Source: Branchinecta lynchi
Lineage: Eukaryota > Arthropoda > Branchiopoda > Anostraca > Branchinectidae
DNA length: 64,000 bases
Assembly: GCA_023053575.1 (NCBI GenBank)
Contig: JAKZAP010000007.1
Location: 26,933,464 to 26,997,463 of the forward strand
Direction of reading: 5' to 3'
Numbering within the stretch: the stretch's first letter is position 1; the number at the start of each line of letters is the position of its first letter. Under the pieces are notes generated by a model. That model made no database searches, was not told the DNA's origin, and worked only from the letters and a program-made list of their open reading frames with translations. The position numbers and the translations under genes are program-made. Below, piece by piece: positions 1 to 10,891 of the stretch.

Positions 1-738
1 ATACTCGATTACTACTTTGAAATTAGTATTTCCATTTCTTATAATCATGTTGTTATCATCATTTCTTCTTAGAAATAATTTATGCGATGCACCTCTGAAG
101 AATCGTTTGTTTCCTTTCAGAAATCCAAACAATTCTGATAATGGTAAATACATATTTACTAATTTACTGCTCTTTGTTCTGTTATATCTTTTTTCAAATC
201 CTTTATTATAATTATTATTATTTCTCAAACTGACTGTTCCACCCCCTGCTGCAGCCCCTGCTACTACTGGAGTTGCAGTAAACGAAGCAATAACAGGATT
301 AATTTCTTTTCCTTGATTATAATCCTTATACCAGAAATGATTTCTTGCTGCACTTCTAGAATAATCATCAGAGTATTCAATCAACTTTGTAACGGTAGTT
401 GTAATACCAACATGATTAATTTTTTCAACCGATTCATCGTTTATTACATACTCAGCGGTACTGAATAAATTAAATCCATTATTCGTTAAAGTAGCAACAT
501 CGGTTGCAGCTATAGGAGTCCCATCTTCGTTTACTATTCTTACACTGACATCAAGATAACTTTCACTTGGATAAAACCAAGAATCTAATTTCTTTGTTAC
601 GAATTCAAACTCTGATTTATTAGATACATTCACATCTGTTTCTCGAATTTCTTTAAATTCATATTTAACCACTGTATCATCCACAAGCGGTTCGTCAAAT
701 ATGTTCCATTGAGGACTGATAACTTTATTTACTGCCAT
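1..738 (-). CDS. Major capsid protein (double jelly-roll hexon), N-terminal part, cut by the window edge
   Basis: The reading frame opens at an ATG within TATAAATGG and stays open for all 246 codons to the window edge, so the C-terminal part is missing. The protein starts MAVNKVISPQWNIF and contains a capsid-like segment (LIEYSDDYSRSAARNHFWYK) followed by a Gly/Ala-rich loop and a basic Asn-rich stretch. Its position beside a small basic virion protein and the penton is the usual place of the hexon-like capsid gene in Polintons and adintoviruses. The product would form the trimeric capsomers of an icosahedral shell. The assignment rests on gene order, start and general character rather than on a recognised catalytic motif. 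A structure prediction showing two stacked jelly-rolls would confirm it. Confidence 0.72.
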   Translation of the reverse strand, partial: MAVNKVISPQWNIFDEPLVDDTVVKYEFKEIRETDVNVSNKSEFEFVTKKLDSWFYPSESYLDVSVRIVNEDGTPIAATDVATLTNNGFNLFSTAEYVINDESVEKINHVGITTTVTKLIEYSDDYSRSAARNHFWYKDYNQGKEINPVIASFTATPVVAGAAAGGGTVSLRNNNNYNKGFEKRYNRTKSSKLVNMYLPLSELFGFLKGNKRFFRGASHKLFLRRNDDNNMIIRNGNTNFKVVIEY

Positions 739-768
739 TTATATAAGAAAGAAATTATTAAATAAAAC

Positions 769-1125
769 TTATTTCAGAATCTTTAATCCATTTCCAGTCA
801 TTAACGTTTTGATCAAGTCCTGACTTCTTTGATTTAAAATCCTTTTATTTGTACCGATAAGATCCTTCATCGATTTTTTGTTTCCAATTACATCAATGAG
901 TTCCTTCTTGTTTACATTGATCAGATCTTTCCCATATTCTATTGCTCTGTTTTTCAACAACTCAAATCTCGGTTTAATAATATTATTATACATTGACATA
1001 GCCCCATCTTTTATTTGTTTTGCTGACGTTTGAAATAACTGGGAATTAACAATGTTTTTGAATACACTACCGATTCCACTTCCATACTGCTTTTTATAAA
1101 GTAATCGCTTATTATTAATCAACAT
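769..1125 (-). CDS. Small basic virion protein, possibly membrane-active (pVI/pX-like)
   Basis: This is a 118-residue Lys/Asn-rich protein starting at an ATG in CCTATAAATG. Near the N-terminus is a short glycine/hydrophobic segment (YGSGIGSVF, residues about 14-22), followed by helical, basic sequence and several IGxxK-type turns. Small basic proteins with a glycine/hydrophobic start sit between capsid genes in many adenovirus-like elements and are proposed to be packaged, DNA-binding or membrane-disrupting minor capsid proteins. That role is inferred from size, composition and position only. The gene lies 30 bases upstream of the capsid start on the same strand, so the two are probably expressed together. 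No enzymatic motif is visible. Confidence 0.55.
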   Translation of the reverse strand: MLINNKRLLYKKQYGSGIGSVFKNIVNSQLFQTSAKQIKDGAMSMYNNIIKPRFELLKNRAIEYGKDLINVNKKELIDVIGNKKSMKDLIGTNKRILNQRSQDLIKTLMTGNGLKILK

Positions 1126-1157
1126 TTATAGGTAAATAATTTTATTTCACTAATCCT

Positions 1158-1871
1158 TTAAGCTTTTCTTAAATGCAGCACGTATCCAACGTTATCACCA
1201 TTCAAATCGATAGGTCTTCCCAACTGATCAGTAATTGTCACTCTCAAGGAGTAAATAAAGTCTTTTGTATTAATAGGAAGGTAGATTAATTGTCTAGGAT
1301 TCTCAACAATTTGACAACCCGGTTCTGTATTCGGAACAAATGTCCAAATGACATCTGATTTACTTTTGTTTACGATAGAACTGTTTACAAGAGAGCAGTG
1401 AATTTGAATTTTATCAACGCTTCTTGTTATATTCGGAAGCTTTGTACCTTCATTGATTTTCTTAGATATCTCACTATCCTTCTCAAATCCTAAAATCTGA
1501 CACAAGTCACTATTAAATCTAAACACATATTTTTCTTGTAATAGTATGACAAATCTCATAGATGCTGGATTGGATGAAATTACAATAGGACATTTATCTT
1601 TTGGGGTATCAAAATACTGACACAAAAAATAATTCAAACAATCATCGTTATACATCCCATTAGGAATAGTAACATTCATCCATCCCCCCTCTTCGTCTTT
1701 CCTGTATTTAAATGTATTATTTCCAAATTTATCACTTATATTATGCCATGAATACCACAAAGTACACTGATTCAAACCTATTTCATAATCCCAATTACGA
1801 TTCAATTCGATTGGTTGACTAAATGTTATATCAATGATACTTTCATTACCTTCAATGTTTAACAACACCAT
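1158..1871 (-). CDS. Penton / minor capsid protein (single jelly-roll)
   Basis: The 237-residue protein starts MVLLNIEGNESIIDI and has the pattern I associate with Polinton pentons: an N-terminal strand followed by WDYEIGLNQC, a central strand-rich body, and a C-terminal signature TDQLGRPIDLNGDNVGYVLH. Its length fits a single jelly-roll vertex protein that would form pentamers at the icosahedral five-fold axes. It starts inside TCTAATAAATGG, and the stop codon TAA of the preceding gene is the first three bases of that motif, so the two genes are packed with no spare sequence. It lies between the coiled-coil virion gene and the small basic virion gene. No transmembrane segment or signal peptide is visible. 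Confidence 0.8.
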   Translation of the reverse strand: MVLLNIEGNESIIDITFSQPIELNRNWDYEIGLNQCTLWYSWHNISDKFGNNTFKYRKDEEGGWMNVTIPNGMYNDDCLNYFLCQYFDTPKDKCPIVISSNPASMRFVILLQEKYVFRFNSDLCQILGFEKDSEISKKINEGTKLPNITRSVDKIQIHCSLVNSSIVNKSKSDVIWTFVPNTEPGCQIVENPRQLIYLPINTKDFIYSLRVTITDQLGRPIDLNGDNVGYVLHLRKA

Positions 1872-1877
1872 TTATTA
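1869..1877 (-). promoter_or_regulatory. TAATAAATG start motif shared by the viral genes (representative site)
   Basis: The start codon is the last three bases of TAATAAATG, preceded by A/T-rich sequence. The same or a near-identical motif (AATAAATG, TATAAATG or ATTAAATG) spans the start codons at 738, 1125, 1871, 2699, 3785, 4740, 5385, 6079 and 10457 on the minus strand and at 10892 and 11801 on the plus strand. It often follows a short pyrimidine run (TCTA, CCTA). It is absent at the apparent protease start (4147). The arrangement resembles late promoters of poxviruses, where TAAATG fuses transcription and translation starts. A promoter role here is inference from recurrence on both strands. 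Confidence 0.55.
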
Positions 1878-2699
1878 GAAATATTTTTTATATATTGAAT
1901 TGTAATTTCTCTTCGTAAGAAATTTATTTCGCATTAACGAATCCAAAATATCAATAGCTTCATTTCTCACCTCATCAGATGTATTTCCGTTTACTCTGCT
2001 ACCTATCAAAGTGTATAATTTTGAAATCATTTCATCACAATTCATAAATATTCCAGTTCCTTGTTGTCTGATAAAGGGTATACTAGATTGAATTTTTCTT
2101 AATCTATCCTTATAGTCTTGTATAAATAAAATAATTTTATCATACTTACTAGAACTATAACTTTTACTTTTCAGACCACCATAACTTTGACTTATAGGTG
2201 TTAATTCAGCCAAAGCATCTTCTATATTCTCTGGGTTATCATAATAAAAATGAGGCATCTCAAAATATTCCCCTTCATATCTTCTATGATTATCTCTATA
2301 TTTCACATTAAGTGTTTTTAATAACTCTTTATCAATACCTTCATTCAGATCAACAACTTTTATACTTGTTGGAGATGCTTCTAAAGCGGTTGACTGCATT
2401 TCTACCCCTGAAACTGGAAGCTGATATGGTTGAATCGTTTCACCTAGCTGGAGAAGCCTTGTTCTTGAACTATCATCACCTTCCTGTAGTTTATTTATGA
2501 TCATTTCAGTGTTTTCTTGTAATTTTTTGATGGTATCTTTAGTGTTTTCTTTTTGTGCTATAATAACTGGAGCGTTTAATTCTGAAGCATATTCCCGAAA
2601 TCCTGCCTTCTCCATCTCATTTTGCTGAACCTTTCTTCTCTGAATTTCTCTGTTCTTCACTATATCCGATAAAATATCACTCAAGCGTCTTGAATCCAT
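1875..2699 (-). CDS. Coiled-coil virion-associated protein, function unknown
   Basis: The 274-residue protein starts MDSRRLSDILSDIVKNRE within TATATAAATGG. Residues about 1-80 are strongly charged and heptad-like, consistent with a coiled coil. The middle is polar with a Tyr-rich patch (RRYEGEYFEMPHFYYDNP). The C-terminal segment (DEVRNEAIDILDSLMRNKFL, then an NYNSIYKKYF tail) is a helical module that I recall at the end of uncharacterised Polinton proteins encoded beside the penton. It lies between integrase and penton with 16 and 3 spacer bases, so it is probably co-expressed with the capsid genes. No catalytic motif is visible. It could be a minor capsid cement, a portal-like or a core protein; I cannot decide. 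Confidence 0.6.
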   Translation of the reverse strand: MDSRRLSDILSDIVKNREIQRRKVQQNEMEKAGFREYASELNAPVIIAQKENTKDTIKKLQENTEMIINKLQEGDDSSRTRLLQLGETIQPYQLPVSGVEMQSTALEASPTSIKVVDLNEGIDKELLKTLNVKYRDNHRRYEGEYFEMPHFYYDNPENIEDALAELTPISQSYGGLKSKSYSSSKYDKIILFIQDYKDRLRKIQSSIPFIRQQGTGIFMNCDEMISKLYTLIGSRVNGNTSDEVRNEAIDILDSLMRNKFLTKRNYNSIYKKYF

Positions 2700-2715
2700 T
2701 TATATACAACTAATT

Positions 2716-3687
2716 TTATTTCATAATAAATTTTGAAAGTTCTTTTTCATAAAACCCTCCTTGAATTAATTCCCCACTTTTGTCAGATATTTCATAAGTA
2801 ATGGGAATGGTAGGTCTGATGGTTGCTATCTGAAATACCTCATCCGTATAATTAGGTAAATATCCTTTATCGAAAATACTTTTTTCTTTTTTAATTCTGA
2901 CTAAATCCCCTACTTTGACGTTTCCTCTGATTTTGTACTCATCTACTGGAGGAAACAGAGCACTAAAAACCTTTTTCTGATTAACCTTTTTACTAGCATC
3001 AACTGGTTTCATTTGTATTGAGCGGTGATACGAGTTATTATAATTATTTACGAATACAGGTAAAATATCAATCCATTTACTAGAGTTGTTGTGAGTAAAA
3101 TATTTCCATAGCTTTTCTTTTAGCGTTCTATTGAACCGTTCAACGATTTGTGCTTTCAATTCGCTTTCAGATGCAAACCAGTGTATGCCGTTATTTTTCA
3201 AAAAAGTTTGAACATTTCTCATCACAAATTCTTTACCTTTATCAGTTTGTAGTTTCTTAGGAATTCTTTCTTTAAATATAACACTGAATGCTTTTATTAT
3301 TTCAGCACCCGTTTTGTCTTTCAGAGGGATACACCAAGCATATTTACTAAAGCAATCAATAACAGTTAAAATGTAATTTGTTTTATTATTTTCTTTTTTA
3401 TATTTCTGCATGTCAACTAAATCAGCTTGCCATTGCTCATCAACATAGTGAACATACACTCGCCTCCTTTCAAAGTTATGATAGGAAGGTTTGTGTAACG
3501 TATACACATTCTCATTTTGCAACACATTTTTTATTTTATCCTTGGAAACCTTAACACCATTTTCTTTTAATTTTCTGTAAATATCATCCACACCTGAATA
3601 ATTAGAATAATACGTCTTTAAAATATCTGTTTCTGCGTTGAGGTTTTTTTTAAAAAGCGATTTTTCCTCGATCCGCAAATAACACAA
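2716..3687 (-). CDS. Retrovirus-like DDE integrase, no in-frame AUG before the catalytic core
   Basis: The integrase would insert the element into host DNA. The rve core carries the acidic triad: D89 in QWQADLVDM, D149 in QTDKGKEF and E183 in QIVERFNRT, numbered from position 3687. The D-x33-E spacing is close to the family's usual D-x35-E. A helical N-terminal domain precedes the core. The tail (GNVKVGDLVRIKKEKSIF onwards) looks like an SH3-type C-terminal domain, and I see no chromodomain. The listed start is a TTG. In this frame the first ATG is inside the core (VDM), so normal AUG initiation would give a dead fragment. The frame overlaps the zinc-ribbon ORF (3618-3785) in the -1 register with a slippery T TTA AAA inside the overlap. 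I infer that it is made as a frameshift fusion. A simple indel in this copy is the alternative. Confidence 0.88.
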   Translation of the reverse strand: MCYLRIEEKSLFKKNLNAETDILKTYYSNYSGVDDIYRKLKENGVKVSKDKIKNVLQNENVYTLHKPSYHNFERRRVYVHYVDEQWQADLVDMQKYKKENNKTNYILTVIDCFSKYAWCIPLKDKTGAEIIKAFSVIFKERIPKKLQTDKGKEFVMRNVQTFLKNNGIHWFASESELKAQIVERFNRTLKEKLWKYFTHNNSSKWIDILPVFVNNYNNSYHRSIQMKPVDASKKVNQKKVFSALFPPVDEYKIRGNVKVGDLVRIKKEKSIFDKGYLPNYTDEVFQIATIRPTIPITYEISDKSGELIQGGFYEKELSKFIMK

Positions 3688-3785
3688 TTCCCTTTCAGCA
3701 TTGGAACATTATTTTTTTGTGACACTGCCTTAAACATTGATTCAGTGTCAGTGCTCTTTTTACATTTCATACAATAAATCTCCAT
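3618..3785 (-). CDS. Small zinc-ribbon protein (DUF5679-like), overlaps integrase in another frame
   Basis: A 55-codon ORF starts at an ATG in TCTAATAAATGG, the motif used by the other genes. It contains two CxxC pairs (YCMKCKK at Cys5/Cys8 and NCVICG at Cys34/Cys37) about 25 residues apart. The Met-Leu-Lys-Gly step before the second pair and the aromatic basic residues after it are typical of the DUF5679-type zinc ribbon of viruses and phages, as I recall that family. Once the ribbon is complete, the ORF runs over T5A8 and stops 11 codons later, while the integrase frame continues in -1. The ribbon may therefore supply the N-terminal zinc domain of the integrase, as the HHCC domain does in retroviral integrases. 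It is too short for most gene callers. Confidence 0.72.
   Translation of the reverse strand: MEIYCMKCKKSTDTESMFKAVSQKNNVPMLKGNCVICGSRKNRFLKKTSTQKQIF
3648..3654 (-). promoter_or_regulatory. Candidate -1 ribosomal frameshift heptamer (T TTA AAA)
   Basis: Read in the frame of the zinc-ribbon ORF, the heptamer is T TTA AAA, which fits the X XXY YYZ rule. A further A AAA AAA step lies directly behind it (run T5A8, plus-strand 3644-3656). Slipping back one base moves ribosomes from the zinc-ribbon ORF into the integrase frame. I did not identify a convincing downstream pseudoknot by eye. Confidence 0.5.
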
Positions 3786-3802
3786 TTATTAGAAAACAAT
3801 TT

Positions 3803-4147
3803 TTATAAACGAAAAGCTACCAACTTCATTTTGCGCTTAATGTAGGAAATACAGTGAAGTCCACAATTTAATTCATCTATATTTTGAACAGCAAGATTTT
3901 CATAAGCTATTTTTTTCTTTGAAGTTCTTAGATATTTAATTATTTCTTTTCCTGGGGGAATACCGAAAGAATCGAAAAATTCTACATAGGGGGATTCAGA
4001 TAGATTACAATAGGCAACCCAGTGAGTTCCAGGCATTCCGAGTTTATCAAAATTAATGACACCGCATTCCGAATCGTTTATATGTTTGGGTAGCGTATCT
4101 AAAGAGAAAACACCTCGAAACTGTGGTATACTCCCTAATGCATCCAT
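3803..4147 (-). CDS. Adenain-like cysteine protease (maturation protease)
   Basis: The protease would cleave capsid precursors during virion maturation. The C5/Ulp1-type catalytic set is present: His42 in GTHWVAY, Asp59 in EFFDSFG, Gln88 and Cys95 in NCGLHC, numbered from the MDALG methionine. The conserved FRGVF...DTLP segment is at residues 10-20. The listed ATG is not in the TAATAAATG context, and it cuts the first conserved helix. The frame stays open upstream to 4216 and encodes PLTNFDI just before the methionine, a segment I recall as part of the conserved N-terminus of these proteases. There is no other ATG in that extension. It overlaps the end of the AT-hook gene in the -1 frame, with a slippery A AAA AAC at 4204-4210. 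Translation as a frameshift fusion is therefore likely; the short form from 4147 is the alternative. Confidence 0.85.
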   Translation of the reverse strand: MDALGSIPQFRGVFSLDTLPKHINDSECGVINFDKLGMPGTHWVAYCNLSESPYVEFFDSFGIPPGKEIIKYLRTSKKKIAYENLAVQNIDELNCGLHCISYIKRKMKLVAFRL

Positions 4148-4170
4148 AATATCAAAATTAGTTAGAGGTC

Positions 4171-4740
4171 CTACTTTACTTTTGCTTCTTTTTTGATGTC
4201 CCCGTTTTTTGACTTCCTAGGCCTTCCACGTACCCCATTACCCACAACTTTTTGTGTTCCAGGGAGTGTAAGCGCGCCACCTGTGTTGACATCATCGTTT
4301 TTTTCCTTCCTAGGCCTTCCACGTACCCCATTACCGGTAACTTTTTGTGTTCCAGGAAGTTTTAGCGCACCACCTGTGTTGGTCATTTTATCCATAATTT
4401 TCTTACCAGCGAATGTACCCAAAGCAGCAGCACCACTTGTTAAAGCTGCCTTACCAAGGGTAATTGCTAGCGGTATTAAAAATGGAAGTAATCCACCTTT
4501 TTGAATCGCTTCTCTCATCTGCTTGTATGATACATCAATATCACAACCCTTATTATTCATTTTACATGTTTCAATTTTATCAAATTGTCGTTTACTTAAA
4601 AGTAACTTGACTGGTTCTCGTTCATTTTGTCTACTATGACTAACACGTATCTGACATTTTTGTTTAGCATCAAAACATTTCTTCAGCTTTCCTTTCTGAA
4701 GCTTTGACAAATAAACTGTATACTCCATTGTTTCAACCAT
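4171..4740 (-). CDS. Minor virion protein with hydrophobic core segment and two AT-hook repeats
   Basis: The 189-residue protein has three parts. Residues 1-80 are basic and contain repeated LSKxQ/KLLLSKRQFDKI-type units. Residues about 84-111 form a hydrophobic Gly/Ala-rich segment (LLPFLIPLAITLGKAAL onwards) that could insert in membranes. Residues 121-145 and 152-176 are two near-identical repeats, each ending in RGRPRK, the AT-hook core for minor-groove DNA binding. Similar basic-plus-hydrophobic proteins in adenovirus-like elements are thought to be membrane-active or genome-condensing virion proteins. The gene starts in CCTAATAAATGG. Its 3' end overlaps the protease frame, and a slippery A AAA AAC lies eight codons before the stop, so it may also serve as the N-terminal part of a protease fusion. 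Confidence 0.68.
   Translation of the reverse strand: MVETMEYTVYLSKLQKGKLKKCFDAKQKCQIRVSHSRQNEREPVKLLLSKRQFDKIETCKMNNKGCDIDVSYKQMREAIQKGGLLPFLIPLAITLGKAALTSGAAALGTFAGKKIMDKMTNTGGALKLPGTQKVTGNGVRGRPRKEKNDDVNTGGALTLPGTQKVVGNGVRGRPRKSKNGDIKKEAKVK
4204..4210 (-). promoter_or_regulatory. Candidate -1 ribosomal frameshift heptamer (A AAA AAC)
   Basis: In the frame of the AT-hook gene the bases read A AAA AAC followed by GGGGAC. This is the heptamer type used at several retroviral gag-pro junctions. The protease frame opens only two codons earlier (stop TAG at 4217-4219) and runs without interruption into the protease. No strong downstream stem was obvious by eye. Confidence 0.5.
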
Positions 4741-4770
4741 TTATTAGGGAATTAATTTATCTTATAAAAT

Positions 4771-5385
4771 TTATTTACCAGCCATCATTTTTTCTATTCT
4801 GGTAACGAATGGTTTGTCAACAGGTTTTAGCTCTAGCTCTAGAAGCCTTTTTAAAATATTTACTACTGCTCTTTCAATATTATCGATACGAGTTTTTTGA
4901 CCAGCAATCTTTCCTTCAATTATACCGTTATGGGTGTGTTGCCCCAGAAGCTTTTTGTCATAATCTAAAAGATTCATAGTTAACGTTGCTAAATTAACAG
5001 CATCATTTTTGTTTCTACGGTTTTGAACATTTGTTATCAACTTGTTTTCAGCGTTAATCTCTTTATCATTAACTCGAACTATTTCTTTTACAAATAACCC
5101 TTTATCTTTGTTCCTTACCAACGAATTATCAGGAGAATCATCTATCGCAGTTAATCTGTTGATATCTTCGCTAAAGTATTGGTTGGCTTGCACTTGTCCT
5201 GCAGTCATTTGTTCTTTAAATTGATTCATAATCACAGTCATAGATCTTAAGCTAATAGCATCCTTGTCTGCCTTGGCATCACCTAAATTTATAATTCGTC
5301 TATCATGTAGGTTAATGTTACCATTTTCGTCAGTAACTTTCGATTCGTTACTAACCTTTTTTCCAACACTACCAAATTTATTCAT
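4771..5385 (-). CDS. Putative fibre/spike-like trimeric virion protein
   Basis: The 204-residue protein carries two copies of a pattern of the form N-x-I-N-(x)n-R-I-I-N-(x)n-DA-(I/V)-x-L: residues about 22-47 (GNINLHDRRIINLGDAKA, then DAISLRS) and 109-133 (EINAENKLITNVQNRRNK, then DAVNLATL). Such DxRIxNLGDPxxxxDAV blocks occur in phage tail-fibre and adenovirus-fibre-like trimeric shafts. Residues about 160-187 are a heptad-rich helix (DNIERAVVNILKRLLEL) that could trimerise. The gene sits between the packaging ATPase and the AT-hook protein and starts in TATAATAAATG. The fibre assignment is inference from the repeat pattern; it could instead be an internal scaffold. Confidence 0.5.
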   Translation of the reverse strand: MNKFGSVGKKVSNESKVTDENGNINLHDRRIINLGDAKADKDAISLRSMTVIMNQFKEQMTAGQVQANQYFSEDINRLTAIDDSPDNSLVRNKDKGLFVKEIVRVNDKEINAENKLITNVQNRRNKNDAVNLATLTMNLLDYDKKLLGQHTHNGIIEGKIAGQKTRIDNIERAVVNILKRLLELELKPVDKPFVTRIEKMMAGK

Positions 5386-5401
5386 TTATTATAGAAATAA
5401 A

Positions 5402-6079
5402 TTATCCGGTAAATTTTTCAAAGTTTTTCCTGTACTTAAGGGTTTTATCTTTTATTTTTAAATCTATGAAGAAAAAACCGTAGCCCTTGGTTGCAGTCTC
5501 GAATTGTTTGAGAAATTTTTCATCGTCTATACTGGATACATGGCTTTGTCTTATTAATTTTACTTCTTTTGGATTAGAACACTGAAAGAATGCAAAATAA
5601 TTGCACTGGAGCCTTACCACCTTTGGCGTTTTATGATAGCTTTGAGACAAGTAAATAATTGAGGCATTTTTCTTTCTTCCTCTTATGAATAAATCTTCTA
5701 TTTTCTTCTGGTCTTTTTCAGTGACAAAATCGTCAAAGATAATCAAGTTTTGGTACTCAGGGTCTAAGTCGTCAACATCGACAATATCATCAAGATTGTT
5801 ACTTACTGTTAAGACTTTCGATTTGCATTGTGACTCCAAAGTGGTTAAATTGGTTATAAGGTCTTGATATTTATCTTCTTCAAGATCTTTAGCATACAAG
5901 TATATTCGGTTGAAACAAAGATATTCATAAATTAAATTCAAAAGAAGGTTAGTTTTCCCTGTTCCAGAACTACCACAAATTAAGAGTCTGAATGGCCACT
6001 GAGGTGCAAGGTCGTGCTTATTCTGATAAGTGTTCTTTTCACTAAAGTCATAGACTTTGATTGGAGCCTTTTCATTCAT
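5402..6079 (-). CDS. FtsK/HerA-type genome packaging ATPase
   Basis: The 225-residue P-loop ATPase would pump viral DNA into capsids. Walker A is GSSGTGKT at residues 36-43, and Walker B is LIIFDD at 112-117, followed by a conserved FV. A sensor-like strand IIYLSQSY is at 141-148. Length and motif spacing match the short A32/FtsK-HerA ATPases of Polintons, virophages and adintoviruses. The start is an ATG in CCTAAATAAATG. Upstream, on the polymerase side, lies a 13-copy tandem repeat and no other gene, so this is the first gene of the minus-strand morphogenesis block. The frame is intact. Confidence 0.92.
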   Translation of the reverse strand: MNEKAPIKVYDFSEKNTYQNKHDLAPQWPFRLLICGSSGTGKTNLLLNLIYEYLCFNRIYLYAKDLEEDKYQDLITNLTTLESQCKSKVLTVSNNLDDIVDVDDLDPEYQNLIIFDDFVTEKDQKKIEDLFIRGRKKNASIIYLSQSYHKTPKVVRLQCNYFAFFQCSNPKEVKLIRQSHVSSIDDEKFLKQFETATKGYGFFFIDLKIKDKTLKYRKNFEKFTG

Positions 6080-6124
6080 TTATTTAGGAAGAATTTTTCA
6101 TTATAAGATTTACTTGAGTATTTT

Positions 6125-6391
6125 AAGTATATACTTGAAGTTTTGAAGTAGGTACTTGATTTTTTTAAGTAGGTACTTGAATTTTTTAAGTAGGTACTTG
6201 ATTTTTTTAAGTAGGTACTTGAATTTTTTAAGTAGGTACTTGAATTTTTTAAGTAGGTACTTGATTTTTTGAAGTAGGTACTTGAAGTTTTTAAGTAGGG
6301 ACTTGAAGTTTTGAAGTAGGTACTTGAATTTTTTAAGTAGGAACTTGAAGTTTTGAAGTAGGTACTTGAAGTTTTGAAGTAGGTACTTGAA
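6125..6391. repeat. 13-copy 20-21 bp tandem array between PolB and the ATPase gene
   Basis: Thirteen units read AAGTAGGTACTTGAATTTTT with small changes (first unit AAGTATATACTT; others AAGTAGGGACTT and AAGTAGGAACTT). Each unit contains the short inverted repeat AAGTA-GG-TACTT, so every copy can form a small hairpin or bind a dimeric protein. The array begins about 45 bases upstream of the ATPase start and ends at the PolB stop codon. It separates the replication gene from the morphogenesis genes, which suits a regulatory or replication role (inference). Confidence 0.9.
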
Positions 6392-6392
6392 T

Positions 6393-9300
6393 TTAATGTT
6401 TATAACCTAAAGGTAAAGTGTGTATTTTATCGCTTGTTACTATCCTTTTATCATCCTTAGGATCTAACGCTTTTTTATTCTGTTCTTCTAGAAACATATT
6501 GTGCTTGTATGATCTTAAGTTATACTGGGTTATAGAAAGGTTTTCCGTTTTACCAAACAGTACATCCTTATAGTTTTGAATCGTAATTTTATCTTTAACT
6601 ATATTGGTTTTTATTCCTTTCAGTTTTTTGCTAGCTTTTGAAGGGTCTTGGTTGTCCTTTAAATAAGCATATACTTTTGATCGTAATCCAACAAACTCTG
6701 TCATAACCTGTCCACCTAATTCATCTTTCATCATTCCTATCACTTTCTTATTTACACTAGGAAATCCATATTGATTATCTTTCGCATAATCAGATGTATC
6801 GAACCTCTCATTCAAATCTTGTTTGATATCTTCATAGAAATCTTCGGTTCGAATGTCGTATATGAAAGAATCAGTGTCCATATAACACAAATCAATTTTA
6901 TCTCCATATTTAGGCTTCATATAATCATAATGGAATTCATACATCAATAACTTGGATAGTTCTAATACAGCAAAGCCGATGTACATTGGTTTGTCTAATT
7001 TTATCTTTTCCTTTGACATTCTTGCTACTGAAAAGTTTTCACTGAATATTATTTCAGATTTAAAGTTGGGTTTCTTTATTATTTTTTCTCTTGTTGCATC
7101 ATCCGTTATTATTTCCATATCCGCTCGCTTCCTAACGTTTTCCATAGTTTTTCCAAAGCAAGCATTATTCATAAGCTTAAAGAAATCCTTCTCAAAATCA
7201 TTTGTACCTTTAGTTCTAAGTGCTGTGTTGTGGTCTATATATCCTTTTAAGTAAGCACTTTCAGTGAATCCTAGTATTCTGTGTACTCTTTTTAATATCA
7301 AGCCTTTTTGTAAATAAAATTCTAGGTTCCTGTGGTGAACTACATAGTTGGTTTTATCTAATACTGTGGTACATAGCTTACCGTTAAAGTGTTCGGGTGC
7401 TAATGGTAAATCCTTGTGTAATTCGTGTATTTCTTTTGGATATTCTAAATCTACCTCATATATAGCACCTACATTCTGTAATTTCATTATCGAATTGATA
7501 TGAGTTTTTAGATGGTTGTAATACTCGATTGATTCGTATTCATTCCTTTCTTTCAAATCATCCGGTATGGAAATGAATTGGAAATCATTCGCTGGTAAAT
7601 TCTGCGACATCGCCCACCCATATAAATTATTAGCGTCTAAATACATTAAATAATTAGGTGGTTTATGCTTATTATAATCACTTGTATATTTATTATTTGC
7701 TTTTGCGTATCTTTTTATACATTGGGATACACCACCTCTTATTCCCTTTTCAATGAATGTATACATGTCTTCCTTCGAGAACAGTGGTAGTTCTACTTTT
7801 GAATGCTTTAAGAAAGAATCCCATGTCCAGCCAGGAGCTGAGAAGTAATGAAGTGGATCCAGATCATAATTATGTATACAAACGTTCCTGAAATTCTCCA
7901 CAACATCTGATAGAATTAACACATCACTTTTTAGGTACAACTTGGTATAATCAAGTAATGTTTCACAGTTAAATTGTTTCCATATAGATACCGCTCTTTT
8001 ATAATCACTTTTGTCAATACCTTTCCCTGTCAACCTAGAATAAAAGCTTTCTATTGGTGGTAACTTTGTACATTTCATTTTATCGAAACTATCTACGAAT
8101 TCATAGGGATACACCCCTTTTTTAATTATTTCTTTGAATTCTTCATCGTTATTGAAACTATTCGATGTGTACTTGAAATTCTCTCTTAGATGATTACAGG
8201 GTACTTTGCAATCACATTTCGCTAAATTTGCTGATAGTTTGTCTAAAGATGAAGCCATAAATCTAATCGAATCTATAAACCGGATCTCATATTTTATTTC
8301 CGTATCCGTCTTTCTTATACTTATTGATTTCGAGAATGATATGAAACTTTCTGCACTTTCAAAAATTCCGTTATCAGGTATCAATTCTCTAACAAATAAA
8401 TGAGAATCATATTTTGATAAATTATGCATTACTACCGGGATATGCCTAGGAATCCTGTATTTCATATTACATTCAGCATGAGCAAATCCCCTATCTTCTC
8501 CTGTCATGTGGTCGTGATCAAAGTGAGGATTTTCAGTAATTTCAGTTGTACAGATGTGACAAGTCTTATCCATTAGATTTTTCCATTTTTCGGTAATTTC
8601 TGAATTGGTATAAGTATGGTTTCTTTGTCTGCTTTCATATTTGTTTGCAATTTCTGTGGATACTTTTGTAACGGTTTTAACAAAATGTTTTGCAGCGTCT
8701 TCACCGAAATAGTCATAGTATTTGTTCTGGTTTGTATCAAAGGAACAGCATACCTGAAATCCGTAAGCAAATGGTTTCTGTTTGGCCACTTTTATTGTTT
8801 TCTTTCCGTTTACCTGATTGTATTCTTCGTTATAAGACTCAAAGTCTGCTATTATGCAATAAGGTACTTTCATTTGTTTTGCAATATTTTTATATTGTAT
8901 ACTTGAACCTTCAGGAGGCATTATTATATCAGGATCTTCGCAATTATTTTTACTTTCATGTTTTTCAAAGTGTTCTTCTTTTGTAAAATGCCTTCCGCAA
9001 AAAGTGCATAGGTATGTCTTTGTTTTATTTTTAGAGATTTGACTACCAACTAATCTGCTCAGATCCTTTACCAATACATAATGATTATCGAAATATAATA
9101 AATTAATAACATGTTTAGCTGTTTTGCCATTGATTGTACTTTTTAGTATATGACTTCTGATAATTTTCTCTTTTTCAATTTGAAATAAACAAATCTTAAT
9201 GTTGTATCTATTTTCAAATTTGTGTATATCTTTAGTATCCATTGGGAAGTTGGTAACCCCATCGAAATCAAATTCGTTCTCATATTGTTTATATTTCGAA

Positions 9301-10457
9301 ATTCTTTCCGGATGATCCTTAGCTGGATGTAGATTTGCTAAGATGGACCAAAGAAAGCATTTTTGATCTAAATTTTTTATATTTATACACGCTTTTTTAT
9401 TTTTTACGAAATCTGGCAGTATTTTAAACGTTCCTCCCATGTAAGATTCTATTCGTGTCATCCTATAATCAATTCCTTCATACCGACTAAATTGTAGCCC
9501 AGATCGAGGGGTATTACTTAAAGAACTAAGTCTCTTGTTATTATCATTCAAATGATTATGAGTAAGAATGCTATTTTTATTTATAATCCAAGAAGTACTG
9601 TTGTAATACACTACTACTTCTTCATCATTCTCCTGTCTATAGAATATAACCCTGGTTACAAACTGAACTCTATATTGATAAAGTTCATTCATCCGCCGCT
9701 GTAAATCGGCGAAAGTAAAAGCAATAAGAGTATCTTTTTCTCTTACATTGCTTTCAATAGAAACGTTGATGGTATAAAGGTTTTCCGTTTCCCTAGAAAT
9801 AGTAGGCTGCTGTTCTTCTTCCTTTCTAAATAAATGATCAGGAATCAATTTTTCTTCTTTGATTTTTTTCTTATTTATAAAGAGAGTGGATAAATCGACT
9901 ACTTTCTGTATACTGTTATCACGTCTTTCTGTTTGATCTCTTATGATATCTCTATTTTTCTGTACGGAATCTTTATGTTTGGTAATAATATTATTATAGT
10001 ATTCTTCAACTCTTTTTAGTACTTCTTCTCGGTTTCCGCGAGTTGATAGGTTCTTGTTTTTCAGAAATCTTTTTAATTCGCTTGTCTCTTTTTCTTTGTT
10101 ATCATTGTATTCTTGTTTTAGTTTTGTAATGGTGATATTATTTTCTTTTATCTCATCTTCCAGAATGGTTCGTAATCTCGGTTCTGGTTTGTAGTCGGAT
10201 GGTCTGTTCTTATTATGAGTTCTTTCGTTTCTGCGTTCAATTTTAATTTTATCTTCAGCTATCAAAATATACTTATTAAGATGGTTTATTATATTATTTG
10301 TTATTTCATGTTTCTTAGCTCCATTTGTTTTGATTTTATTAATTTTCGCATAAGTCCGCAGTTCATTATATGTGTATAGCGGTAATCTTTGTATAACCGA
10401 TTTGTTGTTTGATATAACCTTTTTACAAAGCTGAATAACCTCTGCAGTATTCATCAT
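6393..10457 (-). CDS. Protein-primed family B DNA polymerase with N-terminal SAP motifs and an endonuclease VII-like insert
   Basis: This intact 1354-residue replicase would copy the element's linear genome by protein priming. Domains in order: a SAP-like helix pair at about 27-60 (YNELRTYAKINKIKTNG) and a second at about 126-155; an OTU-like conserved block at about 365-470 (CFLWSILANLHPAKDHPERI); a C2H2 zinc finger at 482-506 (YLCTFCGRHF); Exo I IIADFESY at 535-542; an HNH/endonuclease VII-like motif at 633-669 (HFDHDHMTG, HAECNMKYR); Exo II HNLSKYDSHL at 678-687; Exo III YLKSDVLILSD at 841-851; Pol A DANNLYGWAMS at 941-951; Pol B NNACFGKTMENVRKR at 1097-1111; Pol C CYMDTDSF at 1191-1198. 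All catalytic acidic residues are present. The start lies in CCTATTAAATG. It is longer than the minimal Polinton polymerase because of the N-terminal extension. The 3' end abuts the 21-bp array. Confidence 0.96.
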   Translation of the reverse strand: MMNTAEVIQLCKKVISNNKSVIQRLPLYTYNELRTYAKINKIKTNGAKKHEITNNIINHLNKYILIAEDKIKIERRNERTHNKNRPSDYKPEPRLRTILEDEIKENNITITKLKQEYNDNKEKETSELKRFLKNKNLSTRGNREEVLKRVEEYYNNIITKHKDSVQKNRDIIRDQTERRDNSIQKVVDLSTLFINKKKIKEEKLIPDHLFRKEEEQQPTISRETENLYTINVSIESNVREKDTLIAFTFADLQRRMNELYQYRVQFVTRVIFYRQENDEEVVVYYNSTSWIINKNSILTHNHLNDNNKRLSSLSNTPRSGLQFSRYEGIDYRMTRIESYMGGTFKILPDFVKNKKACINIKNLDQKCFLWSILANLHPAKDHPERISKYKQYENEFDFDGVTNFPMDTKDIHKFENRYNIKICLFQIEKEKIIRSHILKSTINGKTAKHVINLLYFDNHYVLVKDLSRLVGSQISKNKTKTYLCTFCGRHFTKEEHFEKHESKNNCEDPDIIMPPEGSSIQYKNIAKQMKVPYCIIADFESYNEEYNQVNGKKTIKVAKQKPFAYGFQVCCSFDTNQNKYYDYFGEDAAKHFVKTVTKVSTEIANKYESRQRNHTYTNSEITEKWKNLMDKTCHICTTEITENPHFDHDHMTGEDRGFAHAECNMKYRIPRHIPVVMHNLSKYDSHLFVRELIPDNGIFESAESFISFSKSISIRKTDTEIKYEIRFIDSIRFMASSLDKLSANLAKCDCKVPCNHLRENFKYTSNSFNNDEEFKEIIKKGVYPYEFVDSFDKMKCTKLPPIESFYSRLTGKGIDKSDYKRAVSIWKQFNCETLLDYTKLYLKSDVLILSDVVENFRNVCIHNYDLDPLHYFSAPGWTWDSFLKHSKVELPLFSKEDMYTFIEKGIRGGVSQCIKRYAKANNKYTSDYNKHKPPNYLMYLDANNLYGWAMSQNLPANDFQFISIPDDLKERNEYESIEYYNHLKTHINSIMKLQNVGAIYEVDLEYPKEIHELHKDLPLAPEHFNGKLCTTVLDKTNYVVHHRNLEFYLQKGLILKRVHRILGFTESAYLKGYIDHNTALRTKGTNDFEKDFFKLMNNACFGKTMENVRKRADMEIITDDATREKIIKKPNFKSEIIFSENFSVARMSKEKIKLDKPMYIGFAVLELSKLLMYEFHYDYMKPKYGDKIDLCYMDTDSFIYDIRTEDFYEDIKQDLNERFDTSDYAKDNQYGFPSVNKKVIGMMKDELGGQVMTEFVGLRSKVYAYLKDNQDPSKASKKLKGIKTNIVKDKITIQNYKDVLFGKTENLSITQYNLRSYKHNMFLEEQNKKALDPKDDKRIVTSDKIHTLPLGYKH

Positions 10458-10891
10458 TTAATAGGGGAATATTTTTATTAATGAATTTCCCAGTCTGCGT
10501 TTTCTCAGCCGTAAAGAAAATCATTGAATTTCTATTACCTTACTACTCTGTGAGAAAAATGTGTACACGGGTTTCGCACATTCTTCACTACTCTTCATGT
10601 GACAAATGTGTGTGTGTACTGGAATCCCACTTTCTGTACTACTCTTCATGTGACAAATGTGTGTGTACTGGAATCCCACTTTCTGTACTACTCTTCATTT
10701 GACAAATGTGTGTGTACTGGAATCCCACTTTCTGTACTACTCTTCATGTGACAAAAATCATATATTTTTTTAAACTTTGACTCACAAGCTCGAAAAAAAG
10801 AGAATCATACTGTAAAAGTAGCCTAGATGGTGGGTGTGTGGAAATTCGAAAAAATCAAATAATTTTTCGAAACAATTTTATTATATAATAA
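10458..10891. promoter_or_regulatory. Divergent intergenic region between PolB and the right-end membrane gene
   Basis: The 434 bases separate the minus-strand polymerase from the plus-strand genes, so promoters for both directions must lie here. It holds the tandem repeat at about 10570-10755. The far side ends in ATTTTATTATATAATAAATGG at the start of the next gene, of which the last bases match the common viral start motif. No coding sequence is convincing here; a short plus-strand frame across the repeat is a by-product of the repeat. Confidence 0.6.
10570..10755. repeat. About 47-bp tandem repeat in the divergent promoter region
   Basis: Four copies of TACTACTCTTCATGTGACAA and three copies of the intervening TGTGTGTACTGGAATCCCAC make units of 47-49 bases. 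The copies are almost identical; the third reads ATTTGACAAA instead of ATGTGACAAA. A run of TG dinucleotides varies in length between copies. Confidence 0.9.

Follow-up and report, generated by a model that had tools for sequence, protein, structure and literature searches.

The Polinton-Type Element and Its Genes

The window, meaning the whole stretch of 64,000 nucleotides analysed here, carries in its left 12 kb a Polinton/Maverick element (adintovirus-like), one end of which lies outside the window. On its minus strand the element encodes a capsid piece, an integrase, a protease, an AT-hook protein, a packaging ATPase and an ORF of 1354 amino acids, beyond which two small ORFs are found on the plus strand. 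The integrase is retrovirus-like (rve, 7.7e-15 in Pfam), the packaging ATPase is of the A32/FtsK-like type (Pox_A32, 2.1e-13 in Pfam) and the protease is adenovirus-like (Foldseek top match 4wx4), while the capsid candidate, an incomplete ORF at 1-738, shows only a weak match to DJR-like_dom (22.5 bits against a cutoff of 27). The 1354-aa ORF (6393-10457, minus strand) matches the SAP and Endonuclease_7 (Endonuclease VII) models and no polymerase model in Pfam; we take it to be the protein-primed family B polymerase of the element. A 204-aa protein (4771-5385, minus strand) scores 21.1 bits with the model of the T7 tail-fibre N-terminal domain, under the cutoff of 25.2. The family is very abundant in the host genome assembly (575.7 Mb in 216 contigs), and its frames are open in most of the copies listed.

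Most genes of the element share a start motif. Positions 1-10480 contain 239 ATGs on the minus strand, 11 of which follow TAA, and nine of these are gene starts (capsid, 118-aa, 237-aa, 274-aa, zinc-ribbon, AT-hook, 204-aa, ATPase and 1354-aa genes); the two plus-strand genes likewise carry a TAAATG start. This core, present at 11 gene starts between 738 and 11801, resembles the poxvirus late-promoter motif and may be a promoter or initiator. The protease and the integrase do not possess it, and each of them lies in the -1 frame behind a gene that does. The earlier note had held that the apparent Met of the protease lacks the motif used by almost every other gene, and on this point it was right; the motif itself had been drawn too long, as there are 7 exact copies of TAATAAATG in the window, 6 of which stand at gene starts, and what the genes share is the core TAAATG. 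Around the protease junction no TAAATG was found in any of the 119 loci scanned, out of 123.

The Junction Between the AT-Hook Gene and the Protease

The 0-frame ORF of the junction (4171-4740, minus strand) starts with TAATAAATG and encodes a small protein of 189 aa that contains a hydrophobic stretch as well as AT-hook repeats (AT_hook in Pfam, 17.6 bits, cutoff 17.4); we infer that its product is a virion protein. Read from 4740 to 4171, it ends in TCA AAA AAC GGG GAC ATC AAA AAA GAA GCA AAA GTA AAG TAG. The heptamer A AAA AAC at 4204-4210 (minus strand) stands in the X XXY YYZ phase of this frame. The protease frame (3803-4216, minus strand; 137 codons from stop to stop) opens at 4216, directly after the TAG at 4217-4219, is -1 relative to the AT-hook frame and overlaps it by 46 nt, so that the position and phase described in the earlier note are borne out. 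This frame is open and has no start of its own. Its first ATG (4145-4147, minus strand), which is not part of a TAAATG, comes 23 nt after the AT-hook stop, and the segment PLTNFDI (4148-4168, minus strand) is encoded only upstream of it, again as had been claimed.

Taken alone, the junction heptamer is not beyond chance in a tail so rich in A and in lysine codons. Among synonymous recodings of the last codons of the AT-hook gene, 35% contain some canonical heptamer, 5% contain AAAAAAC itself and 8% contain a heptamer together with an open -1 frame; across the whole window AAAAAAC occurs at chance (48 found, 45.1 expected). Structures 5-9 nt downstream are common stimulators of -1 frameshifting, yet not universal, and at this junction the RNA fold of four downstream stretches, pseudoknots aside, was no better than that of shuffles (z from -0.19 to 1.63). 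A second in-frame AAAAAAC lies one AT-hook repeat upstream, at 4297-4303 (minus strand). At this place a canonical heptamer is found in 52 of the 81 copies whose AT-hook frame is long and open, and the repeat as such therefore does not always keep a heptamer.

The AT-hook protein also contains two NTGGA sequences (4366-4380 and 4273-4287, both on the minus strand), which fit the adenain cleavage consensus (M/I/L/N)xGG-x. These sites are weak evidence, with a shuffle mean of 0.92 for both consensus forms together. The related protein P0007 has both sites and P0008 has variants of them, and at least one such site is present in 84 of 89 copies.

Identity and N-Terminus of the Protease

On the basis of its structure model, built with 30 sequences (mean pLDDT 87.6), the protease is an adenain-like peptidase (C5), with a His/Cys layout on a predicted adenain fold. 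The best PDB match of the model is the adenovirus protease (4wx4, Foldseek E 6.9e-07), the Pfam C5 model scores 12.7 bits, under its cutoff of 21.3, and residues H65, D82, C118 and C122 are invariant in the 30-row alignment. A helix predicted at residues 20-27 begins within PLTNFDI, and residues 1-12 are modelled at pLDDT below 50. The C-termini, in the window (3803-3850) as in the copies, take several forms, with frames of 133 and 137 codons that differ in their last residues.

The earlier note had assigned PLTNFDI to the conserved N-terminus of this family, and comparison with relatives supports this. A strict PLTNFDI-like pattern is found in 77 of 121 related proteases, and the remaining 44, inspected by eye, have a variant or a part of it, with the exception of P0001, P0005, P0006 and P0050. 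In the relatives, motifs of the type PL[TSN][ND]xDI lie upstream of the position of the Met at 4147, and this Met is not conserved in the 30-row alignment. The gene calls of the relatives, which have starts by construction, mostly begin a few residues before the motif, and a pattern MLPxRPL recurs at these starts; from this it would seem that proteases of this kind normally have a start of their own, the family of the window being an exception. P0001, of all relatives the closest to the window (86%), has been called from the same internal Met.

Of the nearest relatives outside the genome (P0001, P0007 and P0008) only the protein sequences are known. Queries with the protease, the AT-hook protein, the alignments of both, the ATPase, the capsid piece and the integrase returned no confirmed relative from viral contigs, and none was found among phages. 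A scan of genome contigs returned a single relative, L001, in which the protease forms an independent gene starting at an ATG of its own. L001 is a Polinton-like contig within a Balneolales genome record, probably a contamination.

The Junction Across the Copies of the Genome

From the same genome 131 loci were fetched (L002-L132; L001 comes from the other source), of which 7 repeat the same place, leaving 124 distinct copies. These were drawn from the best-ranked matches, at first those most similar to the extension-bearing protease, and thus lean towards intact junctions; the list obtained with P0001 as the query, and the search that pointed to C17:7932950, are less biased in this respect. 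With up to 2 mismatches allowed, the 35-mer that begins at the heptamer gives 736 matches across the genome, and its reversed control gives none. With the extension-bearing query, which itself favours full-length protease frames, 149 of the 150 matches listed have a frame of 137 codons and one has 157 codons, none with a stop. With P0001, a query that begins at the Met and is for this reason blind to the extension, the frame measures 133 or 137 codons in 139 of the 150 copies listed, and a single one of these 139 is interrupted by an inner stop.

The heptamer is canonical in 118 of the 124 copies (AAAAAAC in 115, AAAAAAT in 2 and AAAAAAA in 1). The six others comprise two copies joined there to unrelated sequence (L010, L048), two with a shorter run (L043, L044) and two with point changes (L106, L110). 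PLTNFDI is exact in 119 of 124. The codon at the place of 4147 is ATG in 118 copies, TTG in L011 and L063, ATA in two and ATT in one, and L100 is out of register. The five copies with another codon retain PLTNFDI, the sixth, L100, being disrupted in its frame, and not one of the 124 copies has a protease-frame ATG between the heptamer and codon 24. As L011 and L063 share the TTG and differ at 16 of 2445 bases, this variant has multiplied by transposition or duplication.

The earlier note had named two findings that would speak against its reading, an AUG at 4147 conserved as the start and a sequencing error or indel. Neither holds, the former in view of the motif that the relatives carry upstream and of the five copies with another codon, the latter in view of an arrangement that is common to many copies and kept in the divergent copy L124. 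The 736 matches of the 35-mer likewise led us to reject sequencing error. A non-AUG start upstream of PLTNFDI was rejected as well: in 111 copies, the sole near-cognate start found in more than two between the heptamer and codon 24 is the ATT beside the Met.

Some copies depart from the common arrangement. The protease frame of L043, L044 and L045 extends beyond its usual upstream limit and contains Met codons there. L041, L047, L122 and L128 carry a stop of the AT-hook frame one codon before the heptamer, with the protease frame open; since L122 and L128 share their stop, such copies may have spread, perhaps helped in trans. In L115, L126 and L127 the AT-hook and protease frames are naturally in register. 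These in-register copies imply that the arrangement can change, the split form being the common one among the copies read. A further copy, at C17:7932950, was judged in register by the length of its frame.

Under neutrality about three non-synonymous changes are expected for each synonymous one. Against the window, the protease body shows synonymous and non-synonymous codons in the numbers 8 and 9 (L011), 8 and 9 (L041), 8 and 6 (L020), 16 and 21 (L045), 16 and 25 (L124) and 11 and 3 (L016), so that by these codon counts the changes between copies appear only mildly synonymous. In a genome with hundreds of copies, trans-complementation blurs whatever is concluded from a single one.

A Divergent Subfamily

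Three members of a divergent subfamily (L124, L045 and L132) occur among the 150 matches listed. L124, whose protease is 79-83% identical to that of most listed copies of the main family, keeps an open AT-hook frame, the codons CCA AAA AAC GGG, the protease in the -1 frame and the same stop position. From the heptamer to the ATG, L124 and the window are identical at 60 of 66 bases, against 373 of 527 in the upstream AT-hook gene, a count that includes gaps (about 446 aligned bases by estimate; p about 0.07 on that basis). Among codons for identical amino acids, synonymous changes are found in 0 of 10 in the overlap and 32 of 122 outside it for L124 (p about 0.05), and in 1 of 10 and 22 of 111 for L045; synonymous constraint in the overlap is weak, and these comparisons offer hints only. 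The protease of L124 has Arg at the place of the otherwise invariant His 65 and a deviant C-terminus, and is for these reasons probably inactive. In its relatives L045 and L132 the AT-hook frame is broken before the heptamer and the protease frame is open. What the sequences show directly is the frames, the heptamer and its phase, the lack of a start and the conserved N-terminus, and the persistence of the arrangement in many copies and in the divergent L124.

The Zinc-Ribbon/Integrase Pair

A second pair of genes in the element shows the same layout. The zinc-ribbon ORF (DUF5679; 3618-3785, minus strand) starts with TAATAAATG and provides the 0 frame, and the integrase ORF (rve; 2716-3708, minus strand) follows in the -1 frame, its first ATG being codon 99 (0-based) of the stop-to-stop frame. 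Two overlapping heptamers, T TTA AAA and A AAA AAA, lie in phase with the zinc-ribbon frame at 3645-3654 (minus strand). In 84 of 91 loci the two ORFs stand in this -1 relation, and at least one in-frame heptamer is present at the junction in 85 of 91, whatever the relation of the frames. The parallel that had been drawn with the integrase stands as far as the arrangement goes; actual frameshifting is what we infer from it. The simplest account of both junctions is that -1 frameshifting is used twice.

Alternative Routes to the Protease

The lack of a usable start, together with the position of the frame, -1 behind the AT-hook gene at a slippery sequence, makes the protease a probable frameshift product. 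The same fusion would also arise by transcriptional slippage, in which part of the transcripts gain a base as the RNA polymerase passes the A run. In slippage of the potyvirus type an RNA virus polymerase adds a base at an A run; the A run near the fusion point is common to both cases, and an added base gives the -1 frame here too, but the enzyme differs, that of potyviruses being an RNA virus polymerase. What speaks for this route is that both junctions have A runs, 6 long at the protease and 8 long at the integrase, and that no stimulatory RNA structure was found. Yet the window has no more than 6 A in the run at the protease junction, 117 of 124 copies have C or T as the last base of the heptamer, and slippage of this kind has no need of in-phase heptamer codons, whose phase is nevertheless kept in the divergent L124; we regard it as unlikely. 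An internal start at the Met of 4147, by leaky scanning, by reinitiation after the AT-hook stop or from an own promoter, would yield a protease without PLTNFDI. The ATG is there in most copies (118 of 124), it is only 23 nt past the AT-hook stop and P0001 has been called from it, but such a product would be cut within the helix at 20-27 and lose the conserved motif, no TAAATG precedes it, the TTG variant of L011 and L063 has multiplied and the alignment of 30 rows holds no conserved Met at this position; we regard this start as unlikely too.

According to another account the start was lost once, either most copies have a dead protease or the in-register copies alone produce one, and the elements spread by complementation. 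The existence of L115, L126 and L127, the persistence of copies with a stop before the heptamer and the changes in the protease body, not strongly synonymous in most pairs tested, agree with it; against it stand the frame, mostly open in the copies listed, and the excess of synonymous codons in L016 against the window (11 to 3), and we give it a small chance. Smaller still is the chance of splicing, which would supply the protease frame with an AUG from an upstream exon, joined close to the AT-hook stop. The genome is large and presumably eukaryotic, and GTAAAGTAG occurs near the AT-hook stop, but the stretch ahead of the possible acceptor is A-rich and has no pyrimidine tract, and intact vertebrate Mavericks are described with intronless ORFs in the part of the source consulted (PMC8097293).

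Relation to Known Systems

Retroviruses use slippery sites of the type A AAA AAC for the gag-pro -1 frameshift. With this system the junction shares an A AAA AAC heptamer, in phase and close to where a gene for a putative virion protein ends, a protease without a start in the -1 frame and a short overlap. It differs in that it belongs to a DNA element and concerns an adenain-type cysteine protease, in being known from sequence alone, in having no downstream stem that could be found (pseudoknots aside) and in the place of the heptamer, ten codons before the stop.

A closer precedent comes from the adintoviruses. A 2024 preprint, as far as the part consulted goes, describes hypothetical slippery sites in adintovirus Penton ORFs (PMC11071296) and proposes a similar slippery-site relation for a 'Hexon-Adenain (Hexain) fusion' (PMC11071296). 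The virus lineage, the type of protease and a proposed -1 event that would tie the protease to a virion protein are the same there, whereas the partner there is the hexon, and section 16 of the preprint contains no copy-level test (PMC11071296); in the element of the window the partner is the AT-hook protein, 124 copies have been compared and the integrase offers a parallel case. Other Polinton/Maverick elements have separate pro and int genes, as described in the part of the source consulted (PMC8097293). They and L001 have much the same gene set as the element of the window, and differ from it in that the protease is a gene of its own, with its own ATG in L001. Within the literature searched, largely at the level of listings, we found no tested frameshift for a Polinton protease, the closest being the hypothesis just cited (seen in part; PMC11071296), and no report of a protease fused through a slippery site to an AT-hook partner or supported at the level of copies.

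Proposed Mechanism and Significance

Judged from the reading frames and the structure model, the protease lacks a usable start and is probably made by -1 frameshifting as an AT-hook-protease fusion. A fraction of the ribosomes on the AT-hook mRNA would slip by -1 at A AAA AAC and produce the fusion, and those that do not slip would read ten more codons to the stop and release the AT-hook protein alone; both the ribosome as the agent of slippage and the rate of the event are suppositions of this scheme. The fusion would carry the protease into the particle, where cleavage at the NxGG-A sites of the AT-hook protein could set it free. The integrase is apparently expressed in the same way, behind the zinc-ribbon ORF. 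We lean, by a little, towards the wider reading that the element makes its protease and its integrase solely by -1 frameshifting, each as an extension of another protein, the other genes being expressed via TAAATG, and that a plan like gag-pro and pro-pol has thus arisen in a DNA virus lineage.

For annotation, the reading, if it holds, is a warning that calls of the protease and the integrase from the first Met are truncated in the family of the window element. The Polinton lineage is often placed near the origin of adenoviruses and other eukaryotic DNA viruses. Should the reading be right, one of its elements packages its maturation protease and sets the dose in the manner of a retrovirus, by fusing it to a minority of a virion protein, and the way in which proteases of the Polinton type reach the particle at a low dose would become testable.
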